Positions 25,154-29,242 of a DNA stretch of 32,501 nt are shown piece after piece. Source of the DNA: Deltaproteobacteria bacterium. GTDB taxonomy: Bacteria; Desulfobacterota; Desulfobacteria; Desulfobacterales; B30-G6. The stretch lies in NCBI GenBank assembly GCA_022340465.1, contig JAJDNW010000054.1, positions 1 through 32,501 of the forward strand, in the 5' to 3' direction. The translations under genes were made by a program, and so were the position numbers. Position 1 is the first letter of the stretch; each line of letters starts with the position of its first letter. The notes below the pieces were generated by a model. It saw nothing but the letters and a program-made list of their open reading frames with translations, was not told where the DNA came from and did no database searches.

Positions 25154-25786
25154 TTATTGGGATAGCCGTGCATAAACGTCCCTGATGACAGCGGCCGACA
25201 GGTGTTGCATGGCGGCACTCATGGCGCCGGCAAAGCTGGGTATCTCCATATCGGCAACGGCCTGCCGCACATGGTACCTCTTTTGCATCAGTGCGGCGTC
25301 CCCGCTGTTCTGCTCGTGGTTGTCGATCAAGGTAATGACGACCGTCAACACGGCTTCGGCGCTTTTCCCGTCGACCTCCTGGTAGAATTCCTCCACGACG
25401 CCGGTGACGATATGTGTGCAGGGCAGTACCGAGTCTTCGTAGAGCGCCGCTTTAAAAAGAGCGCATTCCTCAAAGTCGCGCATCAGAAAGAACGATGCGA
25501 GATCGCCCGGTTGGGCGCGCCACTTGTGATACACGTACTCGTCTCTCTTGAACGGCTTAACTTTGAAAACGATTCGGTTGGAATCGTAAAGGGGCGAGGC
25601 CTGAAAACGATCGATCCTGAGGACATAGGGAAGGGGTGCATTTTCCTCCGGTTGCGGCGGGTCATATTCGAGGGTGTAGTAGTGGACATCTATAGGCGCC
25701 TGCCTGATGCCGGTGCAGGCATGACCGCCGAGAAGGACTGCACACAAGAGCATGGCCATGAAAATCCTCAAAACGGTTTCGGGCAT
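25154..25786 (-). CDS. ABC-type transport auxiliary lipoprotein (PqiC-like)
   Basis: 210 residues. The N-terminal hydrophobic segment MAMLLCAVLLGGHAC is a lipoprotein-type signal with a slightly unusual lipobox, so Cys24 is likely lipidated. The mature start (YYTLEYDPP ... LRIDRFQASPLYDSNRIVFK) matches the DUF330/PqiC family, outer-membrane partners of MCE proteins. The YYTL and YDSNRIVF motifs are the clearest. It is the last gene of the Mla-like operon after MlaD, and would link the MCE channel to the outer membrane (family knowledge). Confidence 0.85.
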   Translation of the reverse strand: MPETVLRIFMAMLLCAVLLGGHACTGIRQAPIDVHYYTLEYDPPQPEENAPLPYVLRIDRFQASPLYDSNRIVFKVKPFKRDEYVYHKWRAQPGDLASFFLMRDFEECALFKAALYEDSVLPCTHIVTGVVEEFYQEVDGKSAEAVLTVVITLIDNHEQNSGDAALMQKRYHVRQAVADMEIPSFAGAMSAAMQHLSAAVIRDVYARLSQ

Positions 25787-25816: not shown

Positions 25817-26827
25817 CTACTTCCCCCTGCTTCCCATCGATTTCTCGACGGGCGGTTCTCCCAGAAACAACTGTGACGGCTGGTCGGCAATGCGTTCCAG
25901 GAACCGGTCGAGGCTTTTACCGGCTTTTTCGTAGCTTTTAAGTGTTTTTTTCATGTCTGCCGCCAACGAGGCGATTTCCTGATGGGACTGCTCCACCAGC
26001 CGGTTGCTGTTGACGGTAAGCCGGTTGATGTTGTCCAGGGAAGTGCGCATTCCCGCTATCAATGCCTGGATGTCGACCGCATTGTCAGCTATCAGGCCGT
26101 CGGTTCTTACCAGTGTCTTGTCGAAGAGGGCAATGGTACCGCGGCTTTCGGTCGACAGGGCGTCGATGTTCTCAACGGCGGCGGCGATGGCATCGATGGT
26201 CGTACGCCATTTCGTGGGCTCCATGGATTGCCTGATATCTTCGATGGCCAAGCGCATATCACCGGAGAGACGTTTGAGTTGGGCATCATCCATGGTTTGT
26301 TCCATTTTTGCGAGCATAGAATTCAGGTTTTGCAGGATGCCTTTGATGTCCAGCCCCTTGAATTCAACCAGCACGTCGTTAAGGGCGCCCATAATTTTCC
26401 TGATTTCTGATGGGCGGGTGTCGATAACGGGGTAGGGTGAAGGAAAGGCTTCCCGCTGAGAAACAAGAATATCTCCCGCCCTTTTTTTTTCCAGCTCGAC
26501 ATACATGAGTCCTGTGATGCCCACGGCTTTGAGTTCGGCAACGATGCTCTTGTCGAGTTGCAATCCCGTTTCAATTTTCAGCACCACCCTGATCAGACGC
26601 GCATCAGGTGCCACCCCGATGCTGTGAACCTTGCCAATGGAAACCCCCCGGTACTTGACAGGGGAATCACGGTCGAGACCCTGCACCGTTTCATCGAAAT
26701 AAGCCACGTAGAATTTGCCTTTTTCGAGATAGTTCGACATCCCTAGCCAGATAACGGTGAAAACAACCATGGCGAACCCGGCTACCACGAAAATGCCTAC
26801 TGCCATCTTTGTTCTGACCGATGCCAT
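25817..26827 (-). CDS. mlaD: MlaD-family MCE lipid transport protein
   Basis: 336 residues. A single N-terminal TM helix (KMAVGIFVVAGFAMVVFTVIWLG) anchors the protein in the inner membrane. The MCE domain follows (about residues 38-115: YFDETVQGLDRDSPVKYRGVSIGKVHSIGV ... ITGLMYVELE). A long helical tail, about residues 150-320, is much longer than in E. coli MlaD (183 residues) and resembles the extended helical needles of other MCE proteins. It should form a hexameric ring and carry lipids across the periplasm. The ATG follows AGGAC. It is separated from mlaF by a 327-bp gap containing a palindromic element. Confidence 0.93.
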   Translation of the reverse strand: MASVRTKMAVGIFVVAGFAMVVFTVIWLGMSNYLEKGKFYVAYFDETVQGLDRDSPVKYRGVSIGKVHSIGVAPDARLIRVVLKIETGLQLDKSIVAELKAVGITGLMYVELEKKRAGDILVSQREAFPSPYPVIDTRPSEIRKIMGALNDVLVEFKGLDIKGILQNLNSMLAKMEQTMDDAQLKRLSGDMRLAIEDIRQSMEPTKWRTTIDAIAAAVENIDALSTESRGTIALFDKTLVRTDGLIADNAVDIQALIAGMRTSLDNINRLTVNSNRLVEQSHQEIASLAADMKKTLKSYEKAGKSLDRFLERIADQPSQLFLGEPPVEKSMGSRGK

Positions 26828-27154
26828 ATGTCCTCATTACCCTCTTTTAGTGTCTATTCAAAACGTAATAGCAGCGAGATTATAGTTTGTTTCAGAATAC
26901 CGTTCCATATGCCCTAAGCCCTTGGCGGGTTTATTTTTCAACGCATCATATCAAACCAAGGCATACCCTGTGCCCGCCGGATTATTGATGGAAACATTCA
27001 GATTTTTACTAAAATTCAGATAGTGGAAACATCATCAATCCGGCAGGGCACTACGACAGCCGTGCAGAATATTGATATATGGTGCTTTGAAAAAATAAAC
27101 CCGCCACCTTCCACCCCAATGTTGAAACGGAACCTATATATGGCAGATGTGCAG
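26828..27154. other. mlaF-mlaD gap (327 bp)
   Basis: No gene is seen. Most of it is the 184-bp palindromic element at 26923-27106. The 95 bp next to mlaD contain the mlaD ribosome site. The adjacent operon genes are otherwise much closer together, which supports an insertion. Confidence 0.6.
26923..27106. mobile_element. 184-bp imperfect palindrome, MITE-like
   Basis: Terminal inverted repeats TGGCGGGTTTATTTTTCAA (26923-26941) and its complement at 27087-27106 differ by one extra A. Inner arms also pair: CAACGCATCATATCAA-like sequence near 26940-26955 with 27072-27089, and GTGCCCGCCGGATT...TTGATG (26970-26990) with CATCATCAATCCGGCAGGGCAC (27030-27051). The whole is one nested palindrome centred near 27012. 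A 3-bp CCT flanks both ends, which may be a target duplication. It has no coding capacity. Alternatively it is a large RNA hairpin for mRNA processing. Confidence 0.65.
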
Positions 27155-27934
27155 TCATTGGGGCCGGGCATCTTCGCTTTCCGGGGTAAGCCGGCGCCTG
27201 AAGAACTGTTTCACCAAGGGGTCCGGGCTGTGCTTTTTAAGGAAGAGCGGGTTCCCTTCGGCAATGATTCCTTTTTTACCTTTATCGATCATGATCACAC
27301 GTTTTGCAATGTTAAAGATGCTGTCGAGTTCGTGGGTGACGATTACCATTGTGGTTCCGATCATGGCGTTGATCTGTCGGATCAGTTCGTCGATTTCCAT
27401 AGACCGCACCGGGTCCAGGCCGGCCGTCGGTTCGTCCAGAAATAAAATCTTGGGGTTGAGCGCCAGGGCCCGAGCCAGGCCCGCCCTTTTTTTCATGCCG
27501 CCGCTGACTTCTCCGGGCATGTGATCCTGATAGTCGATGAGGTCGAACTGGCAGAGCTTCATGCTGACAAGACGGCGTACCGCATCTTTGGGCAGATTTC
27601 CATATTCGACGATGGGCAGGGCGATGTTTTCCGCCAGGGTCATGGAACCGAAAAGGGCACTGCCCTGGAAAAGCACACCGATGTCGCGGAAGAAACGATG
27701 TGACGCTTCCGGGTCATCGCCGGTGACGTTCACGCCGTTGATGGTGATTTCGCCGGCATGAGGCCGCTGCAGCCCGATGAGGTGCTTCAACAGCGTCGAT
27801 TTACCACTTCCGCTGGAGCCGACAATGACGAGGATTTCGCCTGCGGCCACGTCAAAGCTTAGGTCCTGCAGGATCACATCGTTGCCGTATTGTGCGACCA
27901 GGTTCCGAACTTTAATGATAGGTTCCGGTGACAT
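27155..27934 (-). CDS. mlaF: MlaF-like ABC transporter ATPase
   Basis: 259 residues. It energises MlaE/MlaD lipid transport at the inner membrane. Visible are Walker A GSSGSGKST (about residues 38-46), Q-loop region GVLFQGSALF, signature VSGGMKKRAGLARAL, Walker B ILFLDEPTAGLDP, and the switch His in VIVTHELDS. The QGSALFGSMTLAENIALP motif is characteristic of the Mla/Mkl group. It follows mlaE after 156 bp carrying a two-hairpin repeat. Confidence 0.95.
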   Translation of the reverse strand: MSPEPIIKVRNLVAQYGNDVILQDLSFDVAAGEILVIVGSSGSGKSTLLKHLIGLQRPHAGEITINGVNVTGDDPEASHRFFRDIGVLFQGSALFGSMTLAENIALPIVEYGNLPKDAVRRLVSMKLCQFDLIDYQDHMPGEVSGGMKKRAGLARALALNPKILFLDEPTAGLDPVRSMEIDELIRQINAMIGTTMVIVTHELDSIFNIAKRVIMIDKGKKGIIAEGNPLFLKKHSPDPLVKQFFRRRLTPESEDARPQ

Positions 27935-28090: not shown

Positions 28091-29242
28091 CTACCAGTAG
28101 GAACGAATCACCGCAAAAATGGAATCGAAAAGAATAATCAGAAAAATACTGTTGACCACTGCGGACGTGGCGGCATTGCCCACCGCGGCCGCTCCGCCCC
28201 TTACCTGAAAGCCTCGCTGGCATCCGGTCCAGGCAATCAGCAGGGCAAACACGACGCTTTTAAACAGCCCCCAGAGCACTTCGAAAAGCGCCAGTGCATC
28301 GAGGGTCTGTGCAATATAGGTCCCCGGGGTCAGATCGAGCAGAAACACACCGACAACCATTCCACCGGTTATGGCGAAGAAATCGGCAAAAAGCGTCAGA
28401 AAGGGAACAACGATGACGGCGGCGACGATGCGGGGTACGGCCAGAAAAAGCGTGGGGTTGAACCCCATGGTGAACAGAGCATCGATTTCTTCAGAGATCT
28501 GCATGGTGCCGATTTCGGCCGCATAAGAAGAGCCGGTGCGACCGGCAACCACGATGGCGGTCATAATCGGTCCCAGTTCCGAAACCATGGCCATGGCAAC
28601 CAGAGAAGCCACATAGATATTGGCTCCGAATTGCCGGAGCTGGATCGAAGACATGAACGCCATAATCAGTCCCAAAAGAAAACTGATCAGACCTACGATG
28701 GGGACGGCATCGACACCTGTTTTTTTCATAAGGGTGATGGTGTCTTCCACCCGCAGGGACCGGGGCTTGACAACCGTGTGCAGCAACCCCAATACGATCG
28801 AACCGAGAAAAGAGATCATGTAACGGAGATTGTGCAATTCTCTGATGGTTGATTCTCCGAAGCGCAGAAAAAAGTTTGGCTCCCTGACACGTTCAAAGAT
28901 CGGACACTCGACGTCACGCGTGTAAACCGCGCGTTCGAAGAGCGCTTTCAGCTGACGGGTGGCGTTGACGATACTGAACTGTCCGCCACTGTTGCGGACT
29001 GAAGATTCCATATCTAAGACCGCCAGCAGACCGTAATCATCCAGATAGCTCACAACGGAAAGGTCGAGGGTCAACTGGGGAGGCGGATGGCTGTCTATGG
29101 AGGGCATCAGAAATTTGTATATGGCCGGCGTGGAATCGATATCGATATTCATTTTGAAACGAACGAGCAGGCCGCCGGACTCGTCTTCGGCGACGTCATA
29201 GATGTCTGCTGCGTCGGTCGTCGTTATGTGTCTCGTAACCAT
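28091..29242 (-). CDS. mlaE: MlaE-like lipid transport permease with N-terminal STAS domain
   Basis: 383 residues. Residues about 20-115 are a STAS domain (LTLDLSVVSYLDDYGLLAVLDMESSVRN); residues 125-383 are an MlaE permease with five or six TM helices and the motifs VPIVGLISFLLGLIMAF, SELGPIMTAIVVAGRTGSSYAAEIGTMQISEEIDAL, and the C-terminal RGAAAVGNAATSAVVNSIF-type helix. It is the inner-membrane channel of the Mla/Mce system, with MlaF and MlaD downstream. At the position where phosphorylatable STAS domains have Ser/Thr (FxDSxGL) there is Asp (YLDDYGL). No mlaC or mlaA gene is in the window. Confidence 0.95.
   Translation of the reverse strand: MVTRHITTTDAADIYDVAEDESGGLLVRFKMNIDIDSTPAIYKFLMPSIDSHPPPQLTLDLSVVSYLDDYGLLAVLDMESSVRNSGGQFSIVNATRQLKALFERAVYTRDVECPIFERVREPNFFLRFGESTIRELHNLRYMISFLGSIVLGLLHTVVKPRSLRVEDTITLMKKTGVDAVPIVGLISFLLGLIMAFMSSIQLRQFGANIYVASLVAMAMVSELGPIMTAIVVAGRTGSSYAAEIGTMQISEEIDALFTMGFNPTLFLAVPRIVAAVIVVPFLTLFADFFAITGGMVVGVFLLDLTPGTYIAQTLDALALFEVLWGLFKSVVFALLIAWTGCQRGFQVRGGAAAVGNAATSAVVNSIFLIILFDSIFAVIRSYW

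Follow-up and report, generated by a model that had tools for sequence, protein, structure and literature searches.

A nested palindrome in the mla operon of a Desulfobacterales genome belongs to a putative MITE with IS630-type termini

Results

The mla operon and its enlarged mlaF-mlaD gap

The window analysed here is a stretch of 32,501 nucleotides (positions 1 to 32,501 of contig JAJDNW010000054.1, assembly GCA_022340465.1) from a Deltaproteobacteria bacterium of the order Desulfobacterales. The genome, G000 in the following, is a draft, 95% complete and in 162 contigs. An mla operon lies on the minus strand of the window; its genes and the features found between mlaF and mlaD are:

28091..29242, minus strand: mlaE with an N-terminal STAS domain, upstream in the operon (PF02405, 2.6e-73; PF01740)
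27155..27934, minus strand: mlaF, ABC ATPase (ORF; PF00005, 3.4e-33); its TGA stop codon (27155-27157) directly abuts the element
26881..27154, minus strand: whole MITE, 274 bp (full-length alignment of nine copies and BLAST boundaries)
27128..27154, minus strand: left terminal inverted repeat (TIR), decayed, CTGCACATCTGCCATATATAGGTTCCG (consensus, and a counterpart in the IS630 element of genome G185)
26923..27106, no strand: inner nested palindrome (16-nt arms, fold, nine copies over the full or nearly full length)
26881..26907, plus strand: right TIR, decayed, TATAGTTTGTTTCAGAATACCGTTCCA (consensus; this TIR is shared across the order)
25817..26827, minus strand: mlaD, starting 53 bp past the right end of the element (ORF; PF02470, 5.6e-15)
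25154..25786, minus strand: probable ABC-transport auxiliary lipoprotein gene, downstream of mlaD (PF03886, E = 5.6e-05; at 23.2 bits the match is under the Pfam cut-off of 26 bits)

Profile matches to MlaE, the ABC ATPase and MlaD agree with the initial annotation, which had placed a palindrome inside an mla operon. That the gap holding it is much larger than its neighbours is likewise borne out by the ORF coordinates: mlaF and mlaD are 327 bp apart, whereas the mlaE-mlaF gap measures 156 bp and the one separating mlaD from the lipoprotein gene 30 bp.

A 274-bp unit encloses the palindrome

A repeat search of positions 26923-27106 revealed a nested palindrome with perfect 16-nt arms at 26923-26938 and 27091-27106. 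These 184 nt fold with -76.3 kcal/mol, whereas shuffled sequences average -39.45 (z -8.8; none of 200 shuffles was as stable), so the palindrome is not a product of chance. Its presence as first described is thereby confirmed by arms and fold. The terminal repeats of 19 bp assigned to it are perfect over 16 nt and extend to 19 bp only if the fold is allowed a 1-nt bulge.

The extent had to be corrected. Multicopy alignments define a repeated unit of 274 bp on the minus strand, at about 26881-27154, of which 26923-27106 is only the inner part; 27-bp TIRs lie outside the originally given coordinates. The string TGGCGGGTTTATT, proposed as the ends of the element, is an inner arm, and the real ends (TATAG.../TAGAGC...) lie about 42-48 bp farther out. 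BLAST places the boundaries of the multicopy unit in the window at 26881-27149. The bases 27150-27154 were assigned by comparing their letters with the consensus tip, which has decayed in the window copy to CT where TA is expected. The unit is oriented like the mla operon, with its left end (which in the insertion sequence described below lies on the 5' side of the transposase) at 27154 and its right end at 26881. All ORFs inside the 274 bp are mechanical and none is a transposase gene, in line with the lack of coding capacity noted before.

The gap in related genomes

We compared the mlaF-mlaD gap with that of three related genomes, G001, G002 and G004, two of the same genus among them (G005 is left out of this comparison). 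The element is absent from all three: mlaF and mlaD are about 31 bp apart in G002 and overlap in G004; in G001 the gap of about 160 bp is filled with unrelated sequence. The flanks are too diverged for a base-exact junction to be read. These relatives provide the empty site that the initial annotation had proposed to look for. Because their gap lacks the element, the latter is an addition at this site.

A motif close to CACCCCATAGTTGCA(A/G)CG is common to the G001 gap (L065) and to the flank of place L019 in otherwise unrelated intergenic DNA, which suggests another interspersed repeat in the genus.

Copies in the own genome

A search of G000 with the 184-bp palindrome returned 37 HSPs, nine of which cover all or nearly all of the query. 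With a longer query 71 HSPs were obtained; here the flanks of copies were matched too, and the constant core comprises about 274 bp. Merging several searches, to which the search with the right TIR contributed 10 listed of its 22 matches, gives at least 47 places with sequence of this family, nine of them of at least 267 bp. The nine full-length copies show a mean column identity of 92%. Thus, the sequence recurs at unrelated places as a unit whose boundaries are constant; the initial annotation had proposed to look for further copies. The sequence is neither single-copy nor conserved in place across species, which are the two observations that had been named in advance as speaking against a mobile element.

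The remaining copies carry internal deletions, are truncated, represent mini forms of about 70-105 bp or are members of a second subfamily; deletion forms altogether span about 70-110 bp. The second subfamily (L011, L016, L017, L021, L022, L025) is marked by GGCCGTCCCTGATATTTTCAAGGCGGC as its outer arm; its palindromic core is related, with arms that differ and are still complementary. The mini forms (L074, L079, L080, L083, L124, L126, L176) consist of the outer ends only. The internal junction is almost identical in several of them, so the mini forms may move as elements of their own. Two places on contig C94, considered as the ends of one long element, turned out to be separate mini copies, and the genes that lie between them are ordinary ones.

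Two further observations concern individual places. At L042/L008 (contig C13, ~28778), an ORF seems to end on the TAG of the left tip, so the element may supply its stop codon. The full copies L002 and L004 (contigs C57 and C126) lie near contig ends and have nearly identical flanks (GGCAGGGT...AAACCCTGC), which would reflect either a duplicated segment or an assembly effect.

Termini and target site

A gapless comparison of the consensus ends of the nine copies defines imperfect 27-bp TIRs with TA tips, TAGAGCATTTGCCATATATATGTTCCG on the left and TATAGTGTTTGTCAGAATANCGTTCCG on the right. The TATAG tip presumably resembles that of Correia elements. Since the two ends differ consistently (...ATATGTTCCG on the left, ...AACGTTCCG or similar on the right), the element has a direction. 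Both TIRs were matched in 83 two-ended elements of the loci examined, 71 of which have TA at both tips; some of these loci overlap, so that a few elements were perhaps counted twice, and the templates themselves begin or end in TA.

Evidence for the target site comes from L165, an element in the record of the Olavius algarvensis Delta 3 symbiont. A diverged empty counterpart is present on the same contig, and the joined flanks of L165 align with it free of gaps (58/73 positions identical) through a single TA. This empty site, which belongs to a relative's element and not to a copy of G000, supports a 2-bp target duplication as the probable mode of insertion. The filled copy has TG, not TA, at both outer dinucleotides; these tips fit a 2-bp duplication if either mutation or a TG target is assumed. 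Within the IS630 family, insertion into TA with duplication of the target is established for ISY100 (PMC2170065).

Distribution across the order

The right-TIR pattern, allowing up to two mismatches, occurs in 56 of the order's 389 sampled genomes and in 36 of 150 genera. It has 22 matches in G000 and a maximum of 81, in G113; no match of the reversed control pattern is among those listed for the same 389 genomes. A sample of the phylum yielded two matching genomes out of 395, both from the same order; none of the 378 genomes of this sample from outside the order had a match. Whole copies are far more restricted. With the window copy as query, only G000 and the same-genus genome G001 matched among 96 relatives. 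A consensus-like copy matched 23 of the 389 genomes, many over the right 27 bp only. An exact scan of named genomes retrieved 19 stretches; the records are that of the O. algarvensis Delta 3 symbiont and metagenome-assembled genomes titled Desulfobacteria, Desulfobacterales, Desulfobacteraceae, Deltaproteobacteria or Proteobacteria. The interiors of the elements vary between genomes and repeat within one genome.

An IS630-family partner and deletion intermediates

A transposase associated with these termini was found in other genomes of the order. One of them, G245, has an intact 341-aa ORF whose end abuts a right TIR and which matches both the IS630 family transposase profile NF033545 (216.7 bits, cut-off 100) and DDE_3 (8e-35). 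Strong matches (E ≤ 1e-40) to this transposase occur in eight of the 389 genomes, three of them at full length and free of stops (G245, G019, G185). G185 contains a complete IS630-family insertion sequence (IS) of 1,200 bp, composed of a left TIR (TATAGCAAATGTCACAAATATGTTCCG; 23/27 to the template), an intact 341-aa ORF and a right TIR (CGGAACGTTATTTTGACAATCACTATA; 24/27); its transposase is 77% identical to that of G245. Upstream of the intact transposase genes of G245 and G019, no left TIR of at least 20/27 is present in the flank examined, and these two were not counted as complete elements for lack of a recognizable left TIR. The termini of the MITE are thus shared with IS630-family elements, namely with the complete IS of G185 and with the right ends in G245 and G019, the assignment to the family resting on NF033545.

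The likeness is closest at the right end. The right end of the L003 MITE is 88.9% identical to that of the G185 IS over 27 bp, beyond which the interior of L003 has no significant stretch in common with the IS. The left TIR of the G000 elements is less similar to the IS than the right one, and the only complete IS found sits in another family of the order. Compared with a plasmid collection, the partner transposase is less than 60% identical to every match (24-29% among the matches listed).

In G187, two-ended copies carry pieces of the transposase gene and internal deletions; one of 631 bp joins transposase residues 1-67 to 257-340. Such internally deleted copies are, as far as their structure tells, the bridge between IS and MITE.

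The direct transposase search gave fragments in G001 and G002 and no match in G000, where the initial annotation had proposed to look for a transposase; likewise, DDE_3 was not detected in any of the four genomes searched for this family (G000-G003). Because no transposase is detectable there, the family in G000 appears orphaned, and its mobility in this genome is inferred from its history. The missing same-genome partner lowers the estimate of current mobility, not that of the origin.

In G001, the place L208 (contig C461) combines a left TIR (25/27), a spacer of 25 bp and about 45 residues of the C-terminus of an IS630 transposase, and is probably a same-genus relic of the autonomous element.

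Comparison with known repeat families

The closest precedent, compared by description, is RUP of Streptococcus pneumoniae with IS630-Spn1. In the sections of PMC2229807 that deal with it, RUP is a short non-coding repeat with a TA target and TIRs that match those of an IS630-family IS, and its mobilization in trans was inferred from this TIR similarity. In contrast to our element, RUP measures 107 bp and its IS resides in the same genome; here, the unit has 274 bp and a large palindromic interior, and G000 gave no transposase match. The TIR sequences appear to differ in the letters compared.

Correia/NEMIS elements of Neisseria share with our element the TA termini, a similar TIR length (24 bp as contiguous pairs; PMC2229807, Table 1), long stem-loop transcripts and size variants that either have or lack an internal block, as far as the relevant sections of that source describe them. 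They differ in size (~107 or 155 bp versus 274 bp and its deletion forms) and host phylum, and were set apart by description and by the absence of an Rfam match. ERIC/IRU of enterobacteria are also large intergenic palindromes with TA at the termini according to the same table of PMC2229807; at 127 bp and with a short TIR, they were set apart by description. The partner IS itself resembles ISY100 and IS630, described in PMC2170065 as having one transposase gene between imperfect TIRs and a TA target that is duplicated on insertion, and the element in the window differs from these in carrying no transposase.

Neither a description of this MITE family nor its TIR strings were found in the open-licence literature, which omits most subscription papers. 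While the kind of element, a repeat of the RUP/IS630-Spn1 type, is well known, this family seems undescribed and would be new, as set beside the named families by description and Rfam only.

Discussion

Taken together, the copies, the gap without the element in relatives and the termini shared with an IS630-family IS support the non-autonomous MITE-like element suggested by the initial annotation. The feature is almost certainly one copy of a MITE mobilized in trans by an IS630 (Tc1/mariner-like) transposase. In the sequence of events we propose, such a transposase would have acted in an ancestor of G000, binding both TIRs, cutting the element out and inserting it at a TA immediately past the mlaF stop codon. 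The transposase gene would later have been lost, or may be located where the draft is incomplete; decay of the copies in G000 would now be under way. The palindromic interior would have been amplified along with the element, and its base-pairing is presumably being lost in individual copies, including the one in the window. The IS630-type transposase that seems to have moved the element is still encoded in related bacteria.

The initial annotation had also offered a regulatory RNA hairpin that sets mlaD relative to mlaF, which we regard as possible but unsupported. In this reading, the hairpin would be transcribed in the mla mRNA and act as a processing or stability element of the RNase III/RNase E type, setting mlaD against mlaE and mlaF. 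The palindrome does lie inside the operon in the transcriptional sense and its strand folds very stably, and transcripts of Correia/NEMIS and ERIC are reported to affect neighbouring mRNAs in the sections of PMC2229807 devoted to them. Paired consensus positions carry substitutions a little less often than unpaired ones (0.054 versus 0.073), and four two-sided Watson-Crick changes were counted, compared with a permutation mean of 0.85 (P 0.007). However, three of these four cells fall at one pair and 62 one-sided changes break pairs across the nine copies; being weak and mostly due to one pair, covariation of the arms was set aside as support for an RNA function. In the window copy itself, 10 of the 96 consensus pairs are disrupted, and the fold of this copy (-88.1 kcal/mol) is among the weakest of the nine. 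Moreover, the element is not conserved at the mlaF-mlaD site, an Rfam search of 26400-27600 gave no match at E ≤ 1, and terminator-like and promoter-like hits are within or close to shuffle expectation. We therefore consider such a domesticated hairpin unlikely. It is also quite doubtful that the inserted element was co-opted as an RNA switch within the operon, in which the hairpin splits the mla transcript and the level of MlaD, the substrate-binding component, differs from that of MlaE and MlaF. If this were true, a mobile element would have caused a lineage-specific change in the stoichiometry of lipid transport.

A REP/BIME-type selfish palindrome moved by a RAYT (Y1) transposase instead of IS630 would equally be intergenic, palindromic and multicopy, but the unit size, the long paired TIRs with TA tips and the sharing of these TIRs with an IS630-family IS make this very improbable. 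An attenuator or leader specific to the mla operon that merely resembles other palindromes has nothing but its position in its favour, and is refuted to near certainty by nine full-length copies at unrelated places and by relatives with a gap lacking the element.

Our reading is thus that the palindrome originates from a mobile element and has no demonstrated role. For annotation, this explains the gap in the mla operon without a new regulatory element. It links a single palindrome with a MITE superfamily distributed across one order of bacteria of the Desulfobacteria type, together with an autonomous IS630 partner and intermediates from IS to MITE. Since genomes with the TIR (56/389) far outnumber those with a strong transposase match (8/389, at the E-value threshold given above), the family provides a usable case of orphaned MITEs outliving their transposase.
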